Below, piece by piece: positions 24,772 to 37,989 of a DNA stretch of 37,989 nucleotides. The notes beneath the pieces were generated by a model. That model saw only the letters and a list, made by a program, of their open reading frames with translations. It was not told where the DNA came from and made no database searches. The translations under genes were made by a program, and so were the position numbers. Numbering within the stretch: position 1 is the stretch's first letter; each line of letters begins with the position of its first letter. This DNA comes from a virus, in the IMG/VR virus record IMGVR_UViG_3300048549_000945, positions 1-37,989 of that record, one strand, 5' to 3'.

Positions 24772-26013
24772 TTTTATTTCCTTAAATGATTTTGAACGTC
24801 CAACTCCAACAACTTTAGATTGATCAGCTGGTATAGATACTATGCTTGCTTCCATTGGAGTCCAACTAGCTCTATAATAGCCATCTTTGTCTTTGTCTTT
24901 GTTCAGTTTATTTACTCTATAACCAACAGAAATATTTTGTTTGATTCCGTCGGCTACATCCTGAAAAACTTCACGAGCTAGGTCAGATCTACCAAATCTA
25001 ACTACAGCAACTGTCCTTTTTGCTGTCTCATCAAGTTTATATTCTTCAACAACACCAATCTGCTTAGTCATATCATGATCAAGCAATAATGGTGCTCTAC
25101 CTGAAGACATAAATTCCATATCTATATCTTCAGCATTGTGAGACAAAATTTCCATCCCGAAATTTCTCTCAACTGGCTCTTCGGAGGACACTCCTATACG
25201 AACCCTTCTTTCTTCCTCATCAATTAGACCTTTTCTAAAATCATAAGTTCGATACTCTATTTCAGTATCAATTAATCTTTCTTCATCATCTTCTTGATTT
25301 ACATCCTCATGTTTTTCAAACTCAATAACTACAGAGCTATCGGTTTCAGAAACGCTAAGGATATGTCTATCTTCTTTTAACATAGTTTTCTCCTCAGTAT
25401 TTTCTACTGGATGTACTTCCAATTCATTTGAATTGAAATCGTTTAAACCCCTTATTGGGCTAATTTTGTTTAGAGTACTAAACTTATGACCAACTTGTGT
25501 ATCAGTAGGTTCACCACTTCTATAAACTCTTATTAATGCAGCAGGATCATCTGGAGTACCTGTAATAGAGAAATCTGTACCTGGTACATTAATTTTTCCA
25601 TCTCTTGCTACTTTTGTAATTTTACCTTTAGCTCTTCCACCCGGATTATCCCAGCTTACAAAATCTCCTACACTTAATGCGTTAGGCGCCGCTCTATCTT
25701 CTTCATTTTTCATTTTATTTACCAATTTTCTTGACCAACTATATCCTGCGTCTCCGCCCCATAATGCCCAAGCTATTCTTCCATTAGAAGGATAACCTTT
25801 TTCACCAGGACTAAAACCTTCGGCTTTTTTATCAACTTCATGTCTAGAAAAAAAACTAAACATTCTTTTAATAGTTTCATCTGAAAGATTTTCACCAGCC
25901 ACTATTTGCCTTGCTCTTACGGCACCAACTCTAGTACCACCTCTGCCAAATTCTTCACGCCAGTCTAAGCCCTTTTGAGCTTCTGACTTCATACCTGCAT
26001 TTGGTCTAGCCAT
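23512..26013 (-). CDS. Prohead protease-major capsid fusion polyprotein
   Basis: I choose ATG 26013, giving 833 residues starting MARPNAGMKSEAQKG and overlapping the portal stop by 8 nt; a GTG lies eight codons upstream. The N-terminal domain (LDWREEFGRGGTRVG, MFSFFSRHE, IAWALWGGD) occurs in other phage capsid-protease genes. It is followed by a Tudor-like barrel (LSVGDFVSWDNPGGRAKGKI). Next comes an HK97-type U35 protease with LLLDHD (His near 313), NISVGYR (Ser near 362) and MEASIVSIPAD. The major capsid protein follows from residue 415. No stop separates protease and capsid, but in-frame starts at 25383 and 24771 have strong ribosome sites. Confidence 0.8.
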   Translation of the reverse strand: MARPNAGMKSEAQKGLDWREEFGRGGTRVGAVRARQIVAGENLSDETIKRMFSFFSRHEVDKKAEGFSPGEKGYPSNGRIAWALWGGDAGYSWSRKLVNKMKNEEDRAAPNALSVGDFVSWDNPGGRAKGKITKVARDGKINVPGTDFSITGTPDDPAALIRVYRSGEPTDTQVGHKFSTLNKISPIRGLNDFNSNELEVHPVENTEEKTMLKEDRHILSVSETDSSVVIEFEKHEDVNQEDDEERLIDTEIEYRTYDFRKGLIDEEERRVRIGVSSEEPVERNFGMEILSHNAEDIDMEFMSSGRAPLLLDHDMTKQIGVVEEYKLDETAKRTVAVVRFGRSDLAREVFQDVADGIKQNISVGYRVNKLNKDKDKDGYYRASWTPMEASIVSIPADQSKVVGVGRSKSFKEIKMSEVKNEVNQEINVEEVRAQSVAEAKAEFKRNSKEILDLAARHNRRDLADKAISEGNSVEEFRGILLENISNDQPLETPEIGMTPKEVKRFSLVKAINALANPTDRRAQEEAAFEFECSAEAAKRYGTTSQGVMLPPEVLGNWKRDINTSDDSALIAEDFRGQDFIDVLRNESSVMRAGATMLQGLKGDVVIPKKTGTSSPGWIATEGGDSAESEFTVGQVTMSPKTVGAHTEASRLMLMQSSLDVENLIRDDLTRSIATSIDLGALAGSGSSGQPTGIANTSGINTTTFAAAVPTWAELVAMESAVANDNALLGSLSYIMRPADYGNLKTVEKATNTAQFIVEPGGNVNGYNVVKSNQVTAGDYYFGNFADLLIGMYGGLDILVDPYSNSKSGTIRIVALQTVDCAVRHAVSFCKSSD
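25383..25395 (-). promoter_or_regulatory. Internal ribosome site and start for the protease segment
   Basis: GAGGAG (25395-25390) precedes an in-frame ATG at 25383 by six bases. Translation here would begin at MLKEDRHILSVSE, residue 211 of the fusion, just before the protease domain and without the N-terminal WGGD and Tudor-like domains. This suggests a second nested product. Confidence 0.6.
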
Positions 26014-27496
26014 CTTCTTCTTCGTTTTGACCGCCACTTATAGTAGCTTCTACAGGTAATTTTGAACCAAATGGTTGGAATGCAGTTTTAATACCGTATT
26101 GCTCAGCAAGTTTTGACTCTCTTTCATGTTGTTCAAATAACTCTTCTGGATCTCTACCATATGCTGCTGATATATCTGCATATGTTGTTATACCTGCACT
26201 TAAACCCGCTACATTAGCTTGTTGCTCTTTAAGTGGATCAATCCAAGACCAAGATCTAGGTATAAATGTTATAGAATTATAAAATTTATCAAACTTACTA
26301 ATAGGCAAACTTATCATACCACTTGCAATAGACATATCAAACCACTTATGAAAGATAGGTTTCATAAAATGCTCTATTACAAATTGTTGGTATATTTGAA
26401 ACATTGCTCTATCTTCTAATGCACCATGTCTTATTGAACTGTAATTAATACTTGTTAAATCATTTGTTAAAGCATGGTAAGAAATATTTAAACCAGATGC
26501 AATACTTCTTAAAACTTGTGTTGTAAAGTTTTCGAATGCAGAGTTTGGATGATTTGGATCAAAAGCCTTAAAATCCATTCCAGCAGGAAGCTGCTCGAAA
26601 GTACCTGCACTTGCATTCATTATAGGAGAGAATTCATTCATATAATCTTCACCAACATAACCATCTCCATCTGGCGATGTAAAAAAGCCCATTTTGGATG
26701 CTGACACTCGAGCTGCAACAATCTCTGCTTCTAAATAACCATTAAGCATTTTCAAATTAGGCATAGCAGGAGCTATCATAGTAACTCCTCTTCTTTGTTC
26801 TGGCCTTGTTGGTATATATGCGTGTATAATTTCGCTAGCAGGAATTCTTATATATTTATTTTCGTTATAATAAGCTTGATCATAAGGATGTTCTTTATAA
26901 AGATGATAAGCAATAGCTTTATCATTTTTATCATACTCGATTCCCATTTTAATTTTGTTACCAGTCTTAGGATTTGTATCGTTTAATTTTTCATCTAAAT
27001 GATCTGCTTCTAAAAACTGTAAAGCATAACCAAAAGGATTTGAGTTTGTTTTAATATGCCTTACTAAAACCTCACCATCTCTAGCTAAAGCTTCAATAAA
27101 CATTTTTTGGCAATCTAAAAATGAAAACCTACCATTTAAAGTACAGTTTCCTTTTTGTGACCATTGCTTAAATGCTAATTCAATTTTTTGATTAGCAAGC
27201 ATATCTAAAGAACCGTCGTCATTTCTTGCTTTTGAACTAATTTTAATTCCATGGTGTCCAACAACATTAGAAATCATTAAGTTTAAATATCTATTAACAT
27301 ATGGATCGTTTCTAGCTAAGTCTCTAGCCCTATCTCTTAATATTCTTAAATTGTTTTTTATTTCTGCATCTGCAGATGTGGATGTTGTGTAAAAGTCAGA
27401 AAATAATCTGCCTCCACTTGCAGCAGTATATCCTCTCCTTTTTAGTGATTGTGATTTCTTTGGACTTCTATTAAAAAGATTGTTATACCATGCCAT
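26006..27496 (-). CDS. Portal protein, lambda gpB family
   Basis: The 496-residue portal forms the dodecameric ring through which DNA is packaged and ejected. Family features include the basic start (NNLFNRSPKKSQSLKRRGYT), RARDLARNDPYVNRYLNLM, VVGHHGIKI, the LEADHLD segment and HAYIPTRPEQRRGVT. These are characteristic of the lambda-type portal family. It follows the gpW-like gene by one base and overlaps the protease-capsid gene by 8 nt. The length is normal for the family. Confidence 0.9.
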   Translation of the reverse strand: MAWYNNLFNRSPKKSQSLKRRGYTAASGGRLFSDFYTTSTSADAEIKNNLRILRDRARDLARNDPYVNRYLNLMISNVVGHHGIKISSKARNDDGSLDMLANQKIELAFKQWSQKGNCTLNGRFSFLDCQKMFIEALARDGEVLVRHIKTNSNPFGYALQFLEADHLDEKLNDTNPKTGNKIKMGIEYDKNDKAIAYHLYKEHPYDQAYYNENKYIRIPASEIIHAYIPTRPEQRRGVTMIAPAMPNLKMLNGYLEAEIVAARVSASKMGFFTSPDGDGYVGEDYMNEFSPIMNASAGTFEQLPAGMDFKAFDPNHPNSAFENFTTQVLRSIASGLNISYHALTNDLTSINYSSIRHGALEDRAMFQIYQQFVIEHFMKPIFHKWFDMSIASGMISLPISKFDKFYNSITFIPRSWSWIDPLKEQQANVAGLSAGITTYADISAAYGRDPEELFEQHERESKLAEQYGIKTAFQPFGSKLPVEATISGGQNEEEDG

Positions 27497-27497
27497 A

Positions 27498-28124
27498 TTA
27501 TTTTAAATCTGTTATGTTATCGTAATAAGTTTTTGTTCCAAAACTTACAAGTATTTCGTTTCCTGAAGGTTTTTTATTTCTAACTCTATCTCTTTTAACC
27601 TCTCTTAGATACTCTGCATTATACCTATCTCTAAATTCTAATAACTCATCTATAGTCATTCTAGATAAAGATCTTCCTGCTATTGACATTGAAGATTGAT
27701 CCATGGAAGCTCTATTTTCAATAACAGCCTCAATAGCATCTAGTACTTTTTTTGCATGACTTCTTAAATCAGCTGTAGATGTAGCAAGGTTTTCTACTAA
27801 CTTTGCTCTTCCAAAATCAACTCTTACTCTTTCGCTATCAGAGGTTCTTGTAATATAAGCATCCCATTTATATTCGCTTACAGAATAGTTTGCGGTGACA
27901 GAAGAATCAATCTCTATAAAATAATTATCGTTTGATTCTGTTGCTGTAATAGTAAATGAATTACCGCTGCCACCAGAATCATGGCAAAATTGATATGTTA
28001 GTGAATATAAAGATGGGTCGTATGTGTTTGCAAGATCATCTCTTCTCCAGGCCCATCTATCGCCGACAACTAATGTTTCTGGCTCCTGTTCTGGATAATT
28101 TGATCTATCGAATTTATTGTTCAT
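27498..28124 (-). CDS. Head completion/connector protein with gpW-like C-terminal domain
   Basis: The C-terminal part (about 120-205) resembles gpW-type connectors: SHAKKVLDAIEAVIENRAS, IAGRSLSRMTIDELLEFRD and RYNAEYLREVKRDR. It sits directly before the portal, where lambda has W. The N-terminal 115 residues are an added beta-rich domain (WAWRRDDLANTYDPSLYSLTY, GNSFTITATES), making it three times the length of gpW. The extra domain may bind the portal clip or decorate the neck. The boundary with the island upstream is a 69-nt AT-rich gap. Confidence 0.65.
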   Translation of the reverse strand: MNNKFDRSNYPEQEPETLVVGDRWAWRRDDLANTYDPSLYSLTYQFCHDSGGSGNSFTITATESNDNYFIEIDSSVTANYSVSEYKWDAYITRTSDSERVRVDFGRAKLVENLATSTADLRSHAKKVLDAIEAVIENRASMDQSSMSIAGRSLSRMTIDELLEFRDRYNAEYLREVKRDRVRNKKPSGNEILVSFGTKTYYDNITDLK

Positions 28125-28169: not shown

Positions 28170-28199
28170 TTTATACAACAATTCTTATATTAATTACAA
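28170..28199 (-). promoter_or_regulatory. Possible weak promoter before the head genes
   Basis: The minus strand reads TTGTAA (28199-28194), an 18-nt spacer, then TATAAA (28175-28170) in the AT-rich gap between the island and the gpW-like gene. The match is moderate, and AT-rich sequence gives such matches by chance. Confidence 0.25.
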
Positions 28200-29333
28200 A
28201 TTACCATCAATTAATTTTTGGTAGTCTTTAACGCTTAAATTGTTATTTTCTAATATTTTGTTATCACTGGGGTGATAATTTAAGTTATTAAAAGAATCTA
28301 TTAAACCTAACTCTAGCATTTTTTTCTGTCTACCCATTGGATGATTTTTAATTTTACAACTAGACCATATAGCATCTCTGTCTAAATGATCATAATGAAT
28401 ACCTGGCTTTATATAGTTTTCTACCCATCTTATAAAGTCACAGCATACATCTTCGGCATTATATGGTAGTGAATTGAGATCTTCATATATTTTTATCATA
28501 ATATTGTCTAAATGATCTGCTTTTTTAACATTTTTAGGTTTTTCTGCTAAATAACTTATGCACTCAACAGCATTTGTTCCATAGTAGAATAAAGAGCTTC
28601 TATTTATATATTCAGGAAACCAATCTGCAATATCTGCTAAAAAAGCTGCATATTGGAACCTAAAAGCGTTAAAACCGCGACTTTTGTTCCAATTAAACAT
28701 AAATTCGCCTATTTCTCTAAAATCTCTACGCTCTTTTGTAATAAAATCACATAAATCATATATGAGAATATCAGCATATTCGCATAAGTAATAGTCACCT
28801 GATCTTTTATAACTACTATTTATAGGCTTTTTAGGAAATTGTGGAAACTGGTAACCTACTGAAGTATAGAAAGGTTTATCGTAATTTTTGATTTTTTGCT
28901 TTATATCTTCTATGTTTTCACAAGTGTTTAGGTTAAATAAGATAGTATTATGATAACCAGATGGTATTTTTGCATAATTTATAGCACTTCCTGTTATTCT
29001 GTGAACTAAAAATATGTATAACCATGTTTCTAGACTTAATTTTTTGCCTGACCATTGAGAAATAGCAAATTTACGCTCATCTGAGGCCATATTTGCTTTT
29101 ATTTTTCTTATATATGGATGTTTATCACTAGTATTGTAAAAAATATCATTAATTATTTGTGAAAAACCAGCATATTTACGTTCTACAACATCATAAAGTT
29201 GTACATTTTGCATAAGATCGTCACTTATATTAACGTCAGCATGTTCCCTAATGCCTAAATTACAATTAATTTGTTGTATCGATGCTAAATCATAGTATCG
29301 TTTAAATTCTTCATAATATTCTGTTATTTGCAT
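28194..29333 (-). CDS. aGPT-Pplase-like protein, putative DNA base hypermodification enzyme
   Basis: From ATG 29333 (10-nt overlap with the PLP gene) it has 379 residues. It resembles, by pattern, the alpha-glutamyl/putrescinyl-thymine pyrophosphorylase family, helical DNA-glycosylase-like proteins that replace an activated hydroxymethyl group on a base in phage DNA. The matching segments are LETWLYIFLVHRITGSAIN, the central GFNAFRFQYAAFLADIADW followed by YYGTNAVECISYL, and a C-terminal DVCCDFIRWVENY helix. The C-terminal segment KNHPMGRQKKM is basic. The assignment is from remembered family patterns and could be wrong at the clade level. The context of a dCMP hydroxymethylase strongly favours a modification role. 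Confidence 0.5.
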   Translation of the reverse strand: MQITEYYEEFKRYYDLASIQQINCNLGIREHADVNISDDLMQNVQLYDVVERKYAGFSQIINDIFYNTSDKHPYIRKIKANMASDERKFAISQWSGKKLSLETWLYIFLVHRITGSAINYAKIPSGYHNTILFNLNTCENIEDIKQKIKNYDKPFYTSVGYQFPQFPKKPINSSYKRSGDYYLCEYADILIYDLCDFITKERRDFREIGEFMFNWNKSRGFNAFRFQYAAFLADIADWFPEYINRSSLFYYGTNAVECISYLAEKPKNVKKADHLDNIMIKIYEDLNSLPYNAEDVCCDFIRWVENYIKPGIHYDHLDRDAIWSSCKIKNHPMGRQKKMLELGLIDSFNNLNYHPSDNKILENNNLSVKDYQKLIDGNL

Positions 29334-30196
29334 GGCCAATCCCTATAACTATCAATTTTGTCGTAAATTGTTTTATCTTTCAATGTAGGTTCTTTGCCAA
29401 CATTCCAAAATAATATGTTTTTATTAGTATTCTTAGGTATATAGCGCCAAACTTTAGCATCATAAGTTCCAATGCTAGGAAATGGTGGCATTTCTTCTTG
29501 TTTTACAGGTTTTGTAAATGCTTCTGGTGCAGATATAACTTTTGCTCTTCCAAGTTCACCTTCTTTCATGTTTCTTGATACCGCAATAGCATAAAACTTA
29601 GCATTAGGCCAAGCTATTTGTAGAGATCTACTTAAAACTCCTGTTGATATTGCGGTCCAAACTTCATCAGGTTCAGGTATTTGTGATGCTACTTTTACTA
29701 AAGCTGATGTAACAAGCAAATGTTTTAAACCTAGTGGAATAAAAAAAGCATCATTTTGATCTGCCCAAATCTTTGCAATTCTATTTAAGTTAGGCATTGC
29801 AGCAATTCTGTGGAATTCATAATCACAACCTTGCTCAATGCAACAAGCTTGATGATAACTTATCCGCTTGCTACTAGGCATAAAAAATCTAACTTTCTTA
29901 TTATGTCTTTTTGCAACTTCAAGAATACTTACACCAGCCAAACCAGTTCTAGGTACAACATAAGCAATAGTATCTTGCTTTATTTTGCTCATTAACAAAT
30001 CTGCTCCTCTTACTTTTGTTCCTGTTGTTAGATCATCTCTTATTACGTTAACTCCTTCAAAGTTTTCTATGACTGGTTTAGGATTTGGATCTTGCCAATT
30101 TCTAGATAACCAAAGGTGTATTCTTTTTGCTTTTTCGTAAGAGTAACCTAAAGTATCTTTGTTAATATTATCAATTACGTGGTTATCATGACTCAT
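29324..30196 (-). CDS. PLP-dependent enzyme, fold type II
   Basis: The 290-residue protein has VIRDDLTTGTKVRGADLL, where Lys61 is the expected Schiff-base lysine of the ACC deaminase/D-cysteine desulfhydrase/threonine synthase superfamily. RTGLAGVSILEVAKRHNK, then VRFFMPSSK, matches the substrate and phosphate segments. WTAISTGVLSRSL stands at the usual Gly-rich phosphate loop. It overlaps both neighbours (11 and 10 nt). It might add, eliminate or decarboxylate an amino-acid-derived group on a modified base, or make a small-molecule donor. The substrate cannot be read from the sequence. Confidence 0.7.
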   Translation of the reverse strand: MSHDNHVIDNINKDTLGYSYEKAKRIHLWLSRNWQDPNPKPVIENFEGVNVIRDDLTTGTKVRGADLLMSKIKQDTIAYVVPRTGLAGVSILEVAKRHNKKVRFFMPSSKRISYHQACCIEQGCDYEFHRIAAMPNLNRIAKIWADQNDAFFIPLGLKHLLVTSALVKVASQIPEPDEVWTAISTGVLSRSLQIAWPNAKFYAIAVSRNMKEGELGRAKVISAPEAFTKPVKQEEMPPFPSIGTYDAKVWRYIPKNTNKNILFWNVGKEPTLKDKTIYDKIDSYRDWPCK

Positions 30197-31181
30197 CTAA
30201 TATGTCTCCCCATTGATTTCTTCTGTAATACATAGGAGCAATATGAACACTAGAGTTTTGTTCCATAATTTGCTTAGCATATAATTCTGGATCCATTTCA
30301 TACCAATACTCAGGCGGTTGCACTACGTATTCGTAATTATGTTTCAAATACTCAATCCATCTTTTTGTTAAAATATATCTTTGCTCTCTTGATCCAAAAA
30401 AAGGTGCATCGTTGTAATATCCTGTTTTTGGAATACGTCTTTGTTCGTATTCTACAGGAACAGGAGTAGCTATTTCAACATCTATATTAAATTTATCTGA
30501 TATTTGATGGGCTTTATTAATATATTCGTTAAGCATAGAGTTTATATCATAATTATGTCTTAATATATGATGTCTAATATCTACAGAACCAAAGCATAAC
30601 GTTATTCTTTCTATCTTATCGGTTATTTCTATACTATCCATAAAACTATCAAAATCATACTTAAGTGCTCCATGTAATGTTTTGCCATCCATTCTTAAAA
30701 TCATGTCTTTTTTCTTAGCAAAAGCAATTGAATGAGAGTCGCCTATTGTTATACCTTCGTGGTGATTTAAATCACTATGTTTATATGATGTAATTTTTTT
30801 ACACATAAGCGATATTTTGTTACACCAATCTTGGGTAATAAATTCACATGTACTAGAATTACCTATCCTTTTTATAAACATTTCTCCAAAATCTGGCATA
30901 TCGTGATCTAAAGATATTATTTTTGTACCTTGATCTATACACATCAACAATATATTAAATTTCTTATAAATCTCATTATTTAGACCGCCAAAAAGATTTA
31001 ACGATCCATTAAAGTTGACTCCATGATCTATATAAATAATATTAGCATCTAATAATTCAGCATCGCACTTATGATTGATAGTTGCATCTAGTAGATTCCT
31101 CCAATGACTAGCCCAACCATATACGTGTGATTTTTTACTAACAGGAATATTAGCAAGTGGATTAGTGATATACCTGTTCAT
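30186..31181 (-). CDS. SGNH-hydrolase-like protein with N-terminal extension
   Basis: The 331-residue protein has ITIGDSHSIAF (Ser149 in a GDSH block) and LCFGSVDIRHHILRH (about 196-210). The latter matches the GxxDxRxH block of SGNH-like proteins found in surface-polysaccharide clusters. A late VHIAP (His313) is a candidate catalytic His. The first 130 residues look like a separate alpha/beta domain (ANIIYIDHGVNFNGSLNLFGG). A strong ribosome site (GGAGGAG) precedes ATG 31181. SGNH enzymes are esterases, deacylases or acyl-transfer enzymes. In this island it may act on a modified nucleotide or its donor. Confidence 0.55.
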   Translation of the reverse strand: MNRYITNPLANIPVSKKSHVYGWASHWRNLLDATINHKCDAELLDANIIYIDHGVNFNGSLNLFGGLNNEIYKKFNILLMCIDQGTKIISLDHDMPDFGEMFIKRIGNSSTCEFITQDWCNKISLMCKKITSYKHSDLNHHEGITIGDSHSIAFAKKKDMILRMDGKTLHGALKYDFDSFMDSIEITDKIERITLCFGSVDIRHHILRHNYDINSMLNEYINKAHQISDKFNIDVEIATPVPVEYEQRRIPKTGYYNDAPFFGSREQRYILTKRWIEYLKHNYEYVVQPPEYWYEMDPELYAKQIMEQNSSVHIAPMYYRRNQWGDILDES

Positions 31182-31605
31182 AATTAACTCCTCCTTTTTT
31201 TAATATATCTTTTGTTAAAGCAAAACTATTTATCCATCTTAATTCTGATTCAGGATTGCAAGATGCGTAAACTTCTTTTATTCCAACTTGTACAATACCT
31301 TTTGCACATTCGTGGCATACTCCTAAACCATATACATATAATTTTGCACCCTCTAGTGATAAACCATTATGAGTAGCATGGTAGATACAATTCATTTCTG
31401 CATGAACAACGTATTTATATTTTGTATCTCTATTTTCATATTTTTCAATACTATCGTCAAACCTCCTTGGGAAGCCGTTATAGCCTTGGGAGATAACTTG
31501 GCCTTTATCACCTATTGCTACAGCTCCGACTTTTGTAGACGGATCTTTGCTCCAAGATGATATTGCCTTTGCTAAAGACATATAACGACGATCCCAATTA
31601 TTCAC
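31162..31605 (-). CDS. Deoxycytidylate (dCMP) deaminase
   Basis: I choose GTG 31605, overlapping the hydroxymethylase stop by 8 nt; it gives MNNWDRRYMSLAKAISSWS, the normal start of the family, and 147 residues. Zinc ligands are His68 with catalytic Glu70 (VVHAEMN) and Cys97/Cys100 (VCHEC). SKDPSTKVGAVAI is the conserved N-terminal helix and strand. The enzyme converts dCMP to dUMP, feeding dTMP synthesis and controlling the dCMP pool. Pairing with a dCMP hydroxymethylase is as in T4, where both act on the cytosine pool. Confidence 0.9.
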   Translation of the reverse strand: MNNWDRRYMSLAKAISSWSKDPSTKVGAVAIGDKGQVISQGYNGFPRRFDDSIEKYENRDTKYKYVVHAEMNCIYHATHNGLSLEGAKLYVYGLGVCHECAKGIVQVGIKEVYASCNPESELRWINSFALTKDILKKGGVNYEQVYH

Positions 31606-32257
31606 TTGATTCAACCAAATCAAAATGCTTTTCATATACATGTAAGTTTTGTACTTGCCATATGGGCCAATGAATACCATATCCTAGTTCTTTTTCTAAT
31701 CTTTGTAGAACATAATATTGCCACGCAAAATCATTTTTAAAACCATAAACAGCATCATTAGATCTCATTTGTACAACTGCTTGTAACATTCCATCTCTTA
31801 CATAGTAAGTTACAGCATTAGTACATATAAAATCATTTTTACCATTCTCTTCAAACTCTTGCCAAATAGTAGGTCTTGTATAAATCATAGTAGCTCTTCT
31901 AGAGAATGGATCGTTCTTCAATTCATATAAAACATTATCAAATTGTGATCCATAAATAGCATCGTAAATTAATTTCCCATAGTTAGAGTTGATCTCACCG
32001 TGTTCATTAGCGGTATTTTTCCATGCTTGTGGTATAGGTTCATAATCTAAGTCATTAATATTTGTACTTCTAGATTTATACCAATTAATCTCAGCATCTT
32101 CATACTCTTCATTGTTTTTACCAAAAATAGTTATATCATCCGCATAAAATGAAGCTCCAATTATCTCAATAACATTTTCTCCATTTCTATCTTTAACAAA
32201 CTCCTCTTTTAGCAGTTTTGTACTAAATTGTGCTCTTATATCTTTTACTGTATTCAT
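31598..32257 (-). CDS. dCMP hydroxymethylase, T4 gp42-like
   Basis: The 219-residue protein belongs to the thymidylate synthase fold but matches T4 gp42 closely: IEIIGASFYADD, GEINSNYGKLI, SRRATMIYTRP, DFICTNAV, and MRSNDAVYGFKNDFAWQYYVL. Cys145 is the catalytic nucleophile. Asp176 in KNDFAWQ replaces the Asn that thymidylate synthase uses to select dUMP, the substitution known for dCMP specificity in gp42 (Asp179). It should convert dCMP and methylenetetrahydrofolate to 5-hydroxymethyl-dCMP. No T4-type hmdCMP kinase gene is seen nearby. It is at the centre of the island, with ATGA overlap upstream. Confidence 0.9.
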   Translation of the reverse strand: MNTVKDIRAQFSTKLLKEEFVKDRNGENVIEIIGASFYADDITIFGKNNEEYEDAEINWYKSRSTNINDLDYEPIPQAWKNTANEHGEINSNYGKLIYDAIYGSQFDNVLYELKNDPFSRRATMIYTRPTIWQEFEENGKNDFICTNAVTYYVRDGMLQAVVQMRSNDAVYGFKNDFAWQYYVLQRLEKELGYGIHWPIWQVQNLHVYEKHFDLVESSE

Positions 32258-32583
32258 TTGTTAAATATATCCTTAGTTTTATCTTGACCATCAAACTCTT
32301 TGCGTAAATATGTAACAAAGAATGATGCATAGTTAATAAGATCTTTTGCAGAATCTTCTAATGATTCAAAGTTAGGATCTTTGCCTGATTCTGCAGCTTC
32401 TAATACACTCCACATACGAGTGGTTTTAGTATGTATCATTTCCATGATAGACAACACCCCTCTTGGGTAATAGTCTATTTGCTTGATCCTAGAATTAGGA
32501 TTTTGGTAATCATTGGATTTTTGAATTTGTAAAGCAACACATTCATTGATAACTTTAACTGGTTTAAGAGTTGAAGATTTCAT
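32254..32583 (-). CDS. DUF1599-like protein (nucleotide modification-associated domain 1)
   Basis: The 109-residue all-helical protein has VALQIQKSNDYQNP, IMEMIHTKTTRMWSVLEA, and FESLEDSAKDLINYASFFVTYL. The pattern KxxDY...K..R...E...D...D..NYA matches DUF1599. That family was linked to phage base modification by gene context in published computational surveys. The biochemical role is not known; a nucleotide-binding or NTP-pyrophosphatase-like helical bundle is plausible. It overlaps MazG by 20 nt and the hydroxymethylase by 4 nt. Confidence 0.65.
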   Translation of the reverse strand: MKSSTLKPVKVINECVALQIQKSNDYQNPNSRIKQIDYYPRGVLSIMEMIHTKTTRMWSVLEAAESGKDPNFESLEDSAKDLINYASFFVTYLRKEFDGQDKTKDIFNK

Positions 32584-32968
32584 CTAAGTCTCCTGTATTG
32601 TTTGAATGATCTGGAGCAGTCCAACCTTCTGGTTTAACCAAATCAGGAAGTCCTTCCATTCTATAAGTTCTTTTTTTATTTTCGCCAATAACTTTAGACA
32701 TATTAGCCTTGTATACATCATCCCAAGCCTTATCAATATCTATTCCTAATGTATCTAAAGTTCCAATAGTTACAACCAATATATCGATTAATGCATCTAC
32801 TAACTCATTCGAATCTTTACTTTGATAAGCTTTAACAAGTTCTGTATATTCTTCTTTGATAAAGCCTAATCTAAAATCTAGATAGTGCTTTTTTGTTTGT
32901 ATATCTGCGGATTCAATAAACTTGGTTACACCGTAATGCGCGTGCATAAGTTGTATATCTTCAAACAT
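32564..32968 (-). CDS. MazG-like NTP pyrophosphohydrolase
   Basis: The 134-residue protein has the all-alpha NTP-pyrophosphatase metal motif: IKEEYTEL (Glu39, Glu40, Glu43) and NELVDALIDILVV (Glu55, Asp58, Asp62). AWDDVYKANMSKV follows, typical of MazG/PRA-PH-type phage proteins. A strong AAGGAGG ribosome site lies before ATG 32968, with promoter copy B just upstream. It is first in the modification island. By analogy with the T4 dCTPase it could hydrolyse dCTP to dCMP for the hydroxymethylase and keep unmodified dCTP low. Housecleaning or ppGpp-lowering roles are alternatives. Confidence 0.75.
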   Translation of the reverse strand: MFEDIQLMHAHYGVTKFIESADIQTKKHYLDFRLGFIKEEYTELVKAYQSKDSNELVDALIDILVVTIGTLDTLGIDIDKAWDDVYKANMSKVIGENKKRTYRMEGLPDLVKPEGWTAPDHSNNTGDLDEIFNS

Positions 32969-33035: not shown

Positions 33036-34844
33036 TTATTTCCATTTATAAATCCAATCGTTTCTAACGGGTCTCTTACCTACATCTTTAACTTTCTCTG
33101 TTTCACTTGTATTATCTTTGATGCTTTGTGCAATCTTTAAATAGTTAGGCTGTAGTATATGTAATGCTGCAAAACCATAAACCATGGTATCTAAGGCTTC
33201 ATTGCGATTATTAATTTTTACCCAAGCAAACTTCTTTCCGCCTTTTGTATACTTGATTATTCTTTTTTCGCTTGTTAGTTGCTTAAAGTATTCTTCGTCA
33301 ACATGTGCAGGGAAGTGTATTGTTTCTTCTTCTGCTTTTAATCTTGTAAATATAACTTCTTTGGCTGAATCAGTTCCTACAGCGTACAAGATATTTCTAT
33401 TTTTGCCAACATAAGATGGTCTATTAATAATAGGTTGATTAGATAAACTAGAACCTTTAATTGGAAAAACTTTGCGGTGTATACGTTTTGATGCGTAGGC
33501 ATACACTTGTTGTGTATGATGACCACCACTATCAACACAAGTACATACTACTTTTAGTTTTTTATTATCATCTCTTCTATATATGTGGTTTAAATAAGCA
33601 TCTAGCTCTAACCATATTGGATTAGAAGATGGATCTCCGTAAATAACTCTATAATCTATAACCCAACACTCATTATTATCTCCCCATCCTAAAACTTGTG
33701 CTTCAAGTCTATCTCCTTGTACGTCAACTCCACAAGTTAATAGTAAAACATTGTTTGGTATGTTTGTAGGATCATAAGTTTCTCTTTTTTGCATTAACTC
33801 ATGATGCTCTATACTTTCACCTGGATCATCAAAAGTTCTTCCTAAAGCTGTATTAACCCAAGTCTTTAGCATCTCGGGTTGTTTTTTAACTTCATAAAAA
33901 TCTATAGCCATTTCTTTCCAAGTTCTCCATGGACTGTAAAGCTCGGATATATGAAAGCCTGCTACTTTTTTTGTTGGTTTAGTTGCTACCCATTCTCCGT
34001 TTAGTAACATCCATTGTTTTTTATTTTCATCGATAGCAGATTCACAGTGAATACAAATATATTGTGCTGTTTCTGGTTTACTTTTTTCCCACACTATTTG
34101 TTCCCATACTAATCTTTGTTTTTCTTTACAGTTTGGGCAAGGTACATGAAAATAACGTTTATCAGATTCTTCAAAAGCAACATCTATTCTAGACATACCT
34201 TTAATAGTAGGGGTAGACGTAATAAATATCTTACGGTTCCAAAAAGTGGTTGTTCTTTTCATTGCAAGACTAATTGGATCTCCTTCTGCTCCGGCTGAAG
34301 CTTCATAACGATCAACCTCATCACAAAGTAATATTCTAATTGGTCTAGAAGCTAAACCAGACGCAGAATTACTACCAACAATATTAATATTACCACCAGG
34401 AAACTTTTTACTTAGAACAGTATTACCACTATCTTTCGATCGTGGATCTTTAACTTTTTTTCTTAAGCTATCGCAATCACGAATCATATTTGCTAGCCTA
34501 TCTTTTGACCATGCCTGTGCCATAGCAAGAGTAGGTTGTAAGACTAAAGTAGGAGAAGGATCTTGATCTATGTAGTAACCAACAATATTATTTAATATTT
34601 CAGTTGCTCCTACTTGTGCAGACTTCATAAATACAATAGTACTTATTCTATGATCATTTACAGCATCCATAATATCTTTTTGATATGGTGCTCTAGATGT
34701 TCTCCATTGACCACTTTCTGCAGCAGATTCAGCTGAAAGAATTCTATTCTTATCAGCCCACTCTGATACGGTTAACTCAGGAGGTGGATTCCAAATCTGG
34801 CTGATCGATTGCAGTAGTTTCTCTATATTCCTGTGGTATAGCAT
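33036..34844 (-). CDS. Terminase large subunit, lambda gpA family
   Basis: This 602-residue packaging motor cuts and translocates concatemeric DNA. ATPase: VFMKSAQVGATE (Walker A-like, about 72-82) and ILLCDEVDRYE (Walker B, Asp175-Glu176). A zinc-ribbon-like pair is seen at CPNC (236-239) and CIHC (264-267). Nuclease acidic residues are in TCGVDVQGDRLEAQ (Asp374) and CVDSGGHHTQQ (Asp438). The family predicts cos packaging, in line with the GC-rich site upstream. It overlaps the small subunit by 68 nt. Its stop abuts early promoter copy B. Confidence 0.92.
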   Translation of the reverse strand: MLYHRNIEKLLQSISQIWNPPPELTVSEWADKNRILSAESAAESGQWRTSRAPYQKDIMDAVNDHRISTIVFMKSAQVGATEILNNIVGYYIDQDPSPTLVLQPTLAMAQAWSKDRLANMIRDCDSLRKKVKDPRSKDSGNTVLSKKFPGGNINIVGSNSASGLASRPIRILLCDEVDRYEASAGAEGDPISLAMKRTTTFWNRKIFITSTPTIKGMSRIDVAFEESDKRYFHVPCPNCKEKQRLVWEQIVWEKSKPETAQYICIHCESAIDENKKQWMLLNGEWVATKPTKKVAGFHISELYSPWRTWKEMAIDFYEVKKQPEMLKTWVNTALGRTFDDPGESIEHHELMQKRETYDPTNIPNNVLLLTCGVDVQGDRLEAQVLGWGDNNECWVIDYRVIYGDPSSNPIWLELDAYLNHIYRRDDNKKLKVVCTCVDSGGHHTQQVYAYASKRIHRKVFPIKGSSLSNQPIINRPSYVGKNRNILYAVGTDSAKEVIFTRLKAEEETIHFPAHVDEEYFKQLTSEKRIIKYTKGGKKFAWVKINNRNEALDTMVYGFAALHILQPNYLKIAQSIKDNTSETEKVKDVGKRPVRNDWIYKWK

Positions 34845-37331: not shown

Positions 37332-37989
37332 ATGATTTCATCATATTTTTTTGATTGATAACCAGTTTTAGCTTCCCAATGCACTTTCTTTTCTTCTCTT
37401 AGGCGTTTTAATCTGCCTTTTATAGCATTTTCTTTAATATGAGGCATTGCTCTAACTATATCGCTATGTTTGACCCAAATAGTAACAGGATCTGATTCTG
37501 TACCGTCAGCTATAGATTGTTGTATTTCTGCTATCTTTTCTTCTACTTCTTTTAAAGCATTGCTATCATCAATTACAATATCTGTGCGATCAATTTTAAC
37601 TAAAACACCGCTTGTCATGTCATCTTGACCAGGCAATGCTACTTCTTGAAATTTAAAGTAAATGGGCTTGATATTCTTACCATCTTTTACTAGTGTTTGT
37701 GTAAACTCTAGGCACATATCATCGTCATTATCATCTTTGCGTTTTACTGCATATTCTGCATCTACAGCAGCAGGAAGTACTGATGAACCACGAGCTCTAC
37801 CTGATGAATTGTGACCAGTGTGATGCACAAGTGCAACACAAGTATGAAATGTATTCTTTAAATCGTCAACTCTTTCGATAAATAGATTCATATCTTCAGT
37901 GCTATTCTCATTTCCTGCACCAAAATTACGAGCTAAAGTATCAACAAATATCATACCAATATCACCTATCTTATCTTGTATTGCATATA
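37328..37989 (-). CDS. Primase-helicase, C-terminal part (joins 1-1330)
   Basis: This is the end of the protein that starts at 1330; it is read from the duplicated end. It contains the Walker B-like MIFVDTLARNFGAGNE, then VALVHHTGHNSSGRARGSS (sensor/H4-type His region of RepA-like helicases) and PAAVDAEYAVKR. A linker helix (ALKEVEEKIAEIQQSI) follows. The C-terminal winged-helix-like end is WVKHSDIVRAMP followed by AIKGRLKRLREEKKV. The joined gene is 1,848 nt. The last iteron overlaps its stop. Confidence 0.85.
   Translation of the reverse strand, partial: YAIQDKIGDIGMIFVDTLARNFGAGNENSTEDMNLFIERVDDLKNTFHTCVALVHHTGHNSSGRARGSSVLPAAVDAEYAVKRKDDNDDDMCLEFTQTLVKDGKNIKPIYFKFQEVALPGQDDMTSGVLVKIDRTDIVIDDSNALKEVEEKIAEIQQSIADGTESDPVTIWVKHSDIVRAMPHIKENAIKGRLKRLREEKKVHWEAKTGYQSKKYDEII
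37846..37989. repeat. Terminal overlap, right copy
   Basis: This repeats bases 1-144 with T at 37972 in place of C at 127. On the coding strand the codon is AAG (Lys) here and GAG (Glu) at the left end, changing residue 402 of the primase-helicase. Confidence 0.95.

Follow-up and report, generated by a model that had tools for sequence, protein, structure and literature searches.

In phage T4, the 5-hydroxymethylcytosine (hmC) system combines the dCMP hydroxymethylase gp42, the dCTPase gp56, dCMP deaminase, and alpha- and beta-glucosyltransferases. Thymidine hypermodification, as in phages M6, PaMx11, ViI, and PhiW-14, starts instead from a thymidylate synthase (TS) homologue of the dUMP type (Asn), and to our knowledge amino-acid chemistry on DNA bases is so far known on thymine. 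For uncultured phages, MetaGPA found Asp177-type TS, PRA-PH, and dCMP deaminase domains together on contigs experimentally selected for modified cytosine, and in the 5hmC carbamoyltransferase pathway these domains stand beside a non-glycosyl hmC-modifying enzyme (PMC8670742). Aeromonas phage 44RR2.8t, which has an Asp-type dCMP hydroxymethylase, encodes ORF233c, a protein with an SGNH-like part and a PF18723-related C-terminal region. Here, we analyze a seven-gene island of the virus record IMGVR_UViG_3300048549_000945, whose whole length of 37,989 nucleotides is referred to as the window.

The nucleotide-pool half of the island resembles that of T4, with a gp42-type hydroxymethylase, a pyrophosphohydrolase, and a dCMP deaminase; no T4-type glucosyltransferase was matched above the cut-off, however, and the island has instead an SGNH enzyme, a pyridoxal phosphate (PLP) enzyme, and a transferase-like protein of 381 amino acids (aa). 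Like the thymidine systems, it begins with a TS-like enzyme and includes a helical protein that comes closest in modeled fold to the PaMx11 glycinyltransferase, but its hydroxymethylase is of the dCMP type (Asp), its PLP enzyme is of fold type II, an SGNH enzyme is present, and no transferase family is matched at the sequence level. Like the carbamoyltransferase pathway, it places an Asp-type TS, PRA-PH, and dCMP deaminase together; the carbamoyltransferase domains PF02543 and PF16861 gave no match among the island proteins and neighbours scanned. ORF233c differs in being one fused protein beside an SSF symporter, with a C-terminal region that has no detectable sequence homology to the 381-aa family. 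On balance, we consider the island likely to be a self-contained cytosine hypermodification cassette, in which hmC would come from the nucleotide pool and an amino acid:DNA-transferase-like enzyme would then modify it further within DNA. Very probably the cassette replaces cytosine with hmC and then adds a non-glucose group, which is perhaps an amino acid. No published account of this gene set was found in the literature searched; single domains may have been mentioned earlier.

Nucleotide-pool genes

The hydroxymethylase type, the deaminase, and the pyrophosphohydrolase were established by sequence comparison. The 219-aa protein is identified in this way as a T4 gp42-type hydroxymethylase, directed to dCMP and not to dUMP: its match to gp42 (Table 1) compares with E = 1.1e-11 for the best thymidylate synthase, which rules out a plain thymidylate synthase, and it is about 50% identical to the dCMP hydroxymethylases of T4-like phages. 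Its KNDFAWQ motif aligns with GFRNDYAWQ of gp42, placing Asp at the position of TS Asn177, as an earlier note on this DNA had proposed. Asp was found at this position in 73 of the 74 relatives read (in the remaining one, the pattern had matched at a different position of the gene), and the catalytic Cys pattern in 131 of 133 frames. The protein ends about 20 residues before gp42 does. The closeness to gp42, with Asp and Cys kept, argues for hypermodification, as does the presence of the same domain trio on phage contigs with modified cytosine (PMC8670742).

Pfam searches bore out the MazG-like and deaminase assignments that had been made from the sequence. By analogy with T4 gp56, the 134-aa MazG-type protein is probably a dCTPase that converts dCTP to dCMP, and the real start of the deaminase probably lies further in than that of the 172-aa frame. 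For the 109-aa protein, a DUF1599-like identity stood in part, with two PHROG matches but a Pfam match under the cut-off (Table 1).

Predicted folds of the accessory proteins

The transferase-like, SGNH, and PLP proteins were assigned by fold or profile. The AlphaFold (AF2) model of the 381-aa protein was all-helical, with a predicted local distance difference test (pLDDT) score of 91.5. Its best matches in the PDB were the PaMx11 5-PmdU glycinyltransferase structures 8z2n and 8z2m (Z = 10.1 and 9.0), followed by helix-hairpin-helix (HhH) 8-oxoguanine glycosylases; the 8z2n match extends over 208 residues at 3.9 Å, and its Z score is middling for helical models. In BFVD, the best match was A0A6J5L8T5 ('Amino acid:DNA transferase domain', 58% identity), and models named ADDT and HMUDK_hel were retrieved at a probability of 0.96-1.00, with the HMUDK_hel models of PhiW-14 and phiRSL1 at lower confidence. 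A Z score of about 10 is weak by itself for a helical protein, but because the PDB and BFVD searches agree on one superfamily, it is credible that the protein is amino acid:DNA-transferase-like in fold, though not in sequence. The nearness of this fold to the PaMx11 glycinyltransferase, and then to HhH DNA glycosylases, is a further argument for hypermodification. By sequence, no Pfam, PHROG, or PDB match was obtained, and placement in a known family of these databases was dropped. The earlier description of the protein as aGPT-Pplase-like held insofar as the modeled fold is transferase-like, but no sequence match linked it to the thymine-type transferase families.

In the model of the 331-aa protein, residues 132-326 matched GDSL/SGNH hydrolases (Z about 12). 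The GDS(H) motif containing Ser149 and the S-x-H motif containing His313 were invariant in 40 of 40 relatives, and the block V Asp was absent. By modeled fold and by its Ser and His, the protein belongs to the SGNH/GDSL superfamily, as had been supposed. Its N-terminal third perhaps resembles the N-domain of T4 beta-glucosyltransferase: a sub-threshold likeness to PF09198 was seen in 9 of 40 members, and the Asp at residue 92 of the window protein was present in just 26 of 40. Homology to that enzyme was therefore left as a lead only.

Sequence profiles identify the 290-aa protein as a diverged fold-type II PLP (PALP) enzyme, in agreement with the earlier reading. It matched phrog_7093 (threonine dehydratase, E = 4e-38) and, by profile, cysteine synthases in the PDB (E = 3e-4); PF00291 matched 29 of 38 relatives (best E = 4.6e-12), and the candidate PLP lysine K61 was invariant in all 38, with the glycine loop present. 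Relatives annotated as 'DNA modification methylase' were seen in Microcystis phage Mae-JY30 (L018:8384-10702), adjoining two ParB/sulfiredoxin genes, and in Erythrobacter phage R6L (L017:12001-12687); no dCMP hydroxymethylase match was found in either phage.

Linkage and distribution of the genes

IMG/VR profile scans, with contigs ranging from 4 kb to 260 kb, retrieved the 381-aa family on at least 458 stretches, the PLP-enzyme family on at least 570, and the SGNH family on 87. When linkage was surveyed across 126 distinct sequence (contig) groups, the SGNH, PALP, and 381-aa genes were found together in 94, always on one strand and within 4.5 kb of each other in 90; the gene set was thus recovered from other phages, a search that the earlier note had suggested. 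Two main gene orders were observed among the 94 groups, and the hydroxymethylase gene was also present on 64 of the 94 stretches available. Where each flank of the gene in question spanned at least 4.5 kb of its contig, the 381-aa gene (n = 20) was accompanied by PALP, SGNH, and hydroxymethylase genes in 18 cases each, and the PALP gene (n = 18) by 381-aa, SGNH, and hydroxymethylase genes in all 18.

That the three accessory genes travel together argues for hypermodification and bears on the alternative of a plain 5hmC phage, in which the first four genes give hmC and the SGNH, PALP, and 381-aa proteins serve another pathway of surface or amino-acid chemistry. The four-gene nucleotide set would be enough for hmC DNA, and enzymes with SGNH or PALP folds occur widely in surface and amino-acid metabolism; however, the tight one-strand linkage with the hydroxymethylase in many contigs, the DNA-glycosylase/transferase-like fold of the 381-aa protein, and the Aeromonas phage 44RR protein that unites an SGNH-like part with a PF18723-related region (see below) make this explanation unlikely.

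A tblastn search of 50,697 phage records with two different family members as queries detected no relative of the 381-aa gene, and the DNA base made by the cassette is therefore probably undescribed. Relatives were also present on eight contigs from assembled bacterial and archaeal genomes. The cassette is widespread in uncultured phages. Its presence in a genome of about 38 kb, which had been singled out as new, was upheld by the complete genome described below; it is not, however, an oddity of one such genome, since contigs above 160 kb also carry it.

Location and conservation of the island

The seven overlapping open reading frames, all on the minus strand from 32968 to 28194, lie between terminase and portal genes as originally outlined (Table 1). 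In the Roseobacter phages with the nearest TerL (50-51% identity), TerL is directly followed by a hypothetical gene, which takes the place of the connector, and by the portal gene; because nothing corresponding to the island is carried there, it is a discrete insertion. The record ends (1-144 and 37846-37989) have 144 bp in common at 99.3% identity, and a single primase/helicase frame is split by them; this identity indicates that the 38-kb record, classed as linear, is a complete, circularly closing genome. The island genes are under purifying selection, with ratios of nonsynonymous to synonymous substitution rates of 0.03-0.19 against three close relatives (L019, L006, and L004) and 0.04-0.14 against a fourth (L095), for the island genes aligned there. 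None of the four island proteins checked matched a PADLOC defence family.

Table 1. Genes of the island and its flanks in the window
Position	Strand	Assignment	Basis or remark
28194-29339	-	Amino acid:DNA-transferase-like enzyme, HhH-glycosylase-type helical fold, 381 aa	Predicted structure; 379 aa if ATG at 29333 is the start
29324-30196	-	Fold-type II PLP enzyme (PALP), 290 aa	phrog_7093; PF00291 in relatives; candidate PLP lysine K61; phosphate loop S184-T185-G186
30186-31181	-	SGNH-type enzyme, 331 aa	AF2 model, pLDDT 90; Ser149, His313; separate N-terminal third
31162-31680	-	dCMP deaminase, up to 172 aa	PF00383 (E = 2.4e-19); phrog_174 (E = 1.3e-43); PDB deoxycytidylate deaminases
31598-32257	-	dCMP hydroxymethylase, T4 gp42 type, 219 aa	T4 gp42 (E = 5.9e-58); Asp in KNDFAWQ
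32254-32583	-	Protein with weak DUF1599 (nucleotide modification associated domain 1) match, 109 aa	PF07659 (E = 0.072, under cut-off); phrog_18404 hydrolase (E = 1.8e-15); phrog_1485 (E = 7e-11)
32564-32968	-	MazG/PRA-PH-type all-alpha NTP pyrophosphohydrolase, 134 aa	PF01503 (E = 3.5e-11); phrog_671 nucleotide pyrophosphohydrolase (E = 1.5e-26); MazG-like DR2231, PDB (E = 3e-8)
33036-34844		TerL (GpA)	Upstream flank
27498-28124		Connector	Downstream flank
26006-27496		Lambda-type portal	Downstream flank

SGNH genes in inositol- and sugar-associated loci

Thirteen loci combine an SGNH gene with genes for an inositol-phosphate synthase and a PF18723-type (5-hmdU-kinase-helical-domain) protein, and none of them has the PALP or 381-aa gene. 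The exchange is slot for slot: the latter pair is replaced by the former, SGNH is retained, and both sets were never observed in one locus. An Asp-type hydroxymethylase was found in 5 of the 12 inositol-type records searched, several of which are short fragments. In L165 (1887-10035), MazG, DUF1599, hydroxymethylase, deaminase, inositol-phosphate synthase, PF18723-type, and SGNH genes form a single row, which may represent an inositol version of the cassette. A 401-aa protein near an inositol-type cassette (L014:8031-9236) weakly matched T4 beta-glucosyltransferase (PF09198, E = 0.003).

In Aeromonas phage 44RR (L016:9190-13170), an SGNH-like part and a PF18723-related C-terminal region are fused in a 795-aa protein, and the C-terminal region is homologous to the PF18723-type protein of the inositol loci (BLASTP, E = 2e-29); the fusion gene adjoins an SSF symporter gene nearest to sodium/glucose cotransporters. 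A UDP-galactopyranose mutase and a 358-aa phrog_14998 protein stand beside an SGNH relative in Stenotrophomonas phage IME13 (L243:3270-7047), which is possibly a sugar-based version. Both the slot-for-slot swap and the 44RR fusion argue for hypermodification. Since the supplier and the transferase are exchanged as a pair, whereas the hydroxymethylase and SGNH genes keep reappearing, the SGNH enzyme may perform the common hmC-directed step, with PALP or inositol-phosphate synthase as suppliers and the helical proteins as transferases.

These contexts could also point to a glycan-type decoration, in which the SGNH and 381-aa proteins would assist in placing a sugar or polyol on hmC or in completing it, and the PLP enzyme would make a minor substituent. 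The SGNH partners in these loci (inositol-phosphate synthase, sodium/glucose-type symporter, and UDP-galactopyranose mutase) would suit such a scheme, as would the weak resemblance between the N-terminal third of the SGNH protein and T4 beta-glucosyltransferase. It is nevertheless improbable, considering that the polyol slot is replaced by a PLP slot, that the transferase-like fold is nearest to enzymes that transfer amino acids, and that no glycosyltransferase is present among the named island proteins, where the earlier note had also seen no glucosyltransferase. Searches for T4-type glucosyltransferases gave no match above cut-off with PF09198 in 19 records or with PF11440 in 10 including the window, but the control genomes gave no match either, so that absence is not proven.

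Proposed pathway

We infer the following scheme for the hypermodification cassette, including the sequence of its steps, the amino acid, the part played by SGNH, the final product, and the elaboration of hmC in virion DNA. The MazG-type pyrophosphohydrolase would lower dCTP and produce dCMP, which the hydroxymethylase would convert to 5-hydroxymethyl-dCMP; this would be phosphorylated, presumably by host kinases, and enter DNA in place of cytosine, and the deaminase would balance dCMP against dUMP. The 381-aa helical enzyme would flip out hmC in DNA and attach a small nucleophile to the 5-methylene carbon; this nucleophile is most likely an amino acid, which the PLP enzyme would make or remodel. 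The SGNH enzyme would act on hmC in a step shared by several systems of this kind, most likely adding a leaving or acyl group to the hydroxyl, or else trimming the product. Addition of such a group would fill the place of the DNA kinase in thymine hypermodification. A search at E 10 among frames of at least 60 aa from the window and the loci collected up to that point returned no homologue of gp49, the P-loop protein encoded in the PaMx11 modification cluster, which we take to be that kinase; the activation step would therefore be done by other means or by a host enzyme. P-loop motifs in the window frames were those of a helicase, a terminase-region frame, and a RecE-like frame, and no ParB-type serine kinase was found as a partner in 10 records searched. 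The likeness to thymine hypermodification drawn earlier thus extends to the helical transferase-like fold, but not to a gp49 homologue or to a transferase match by sequence. A more specific version is tentative and rather doubtful: a kinase-free route to aminoacylated cytosine, in which the SGNH enzyme activates hmC and the transferase-like enzyme installs an amino acid supplied by the PLP enzyme, built in a modular way so that the supplier/transferase pair could be exchanged for the inositol version. That the PLP enzyme acts after transfer on the DNA-attached amino acid, by elimination or rearrangement, is very unlikely, for although PLP enzymes reportedly process amino acids bound to DNA in the thymidine systems, the exchange against inositol-phosphate synthase in the same slot points to an enzyme that supplies the substrate.

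Several observations weigh against the cassette as proposed. PF18723 had no match in the window and PF18724 none in ten records including it; hhalign alignments of the 381-aa family profile with the PF18723-type set and with PaMx11 gp46 were not significant, and direct homology with either was dropped. With no significant family match at the sequence level, the transferase call rests on the fold and a middling Z score. The 290-aa protein itself falls under the PF00291 cut-off, and relatives of it are present in phages where no dCMP hydroxymethylase was found. The SGNH step may not be activation, because SGNH genes also adjoin sugar genes, such as the mutase gene in IME13. The cassette is known here from genes, profiles, and models.

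If the hypermodification reading is correct, hmC would be elaborated by amino-acid chemistry through a cassette that many uncultured phages carry and that did not turn up in the phage records searched. This would predict new DNA nucleosides and new ways of escaping restriction and modification-dependent defences, and it would provide enzymes for writing functional groups on hmC. The cultured T4-like Aeromonas phages with an SGNH-containing fused protein bring part of the scheme within reach of testing.

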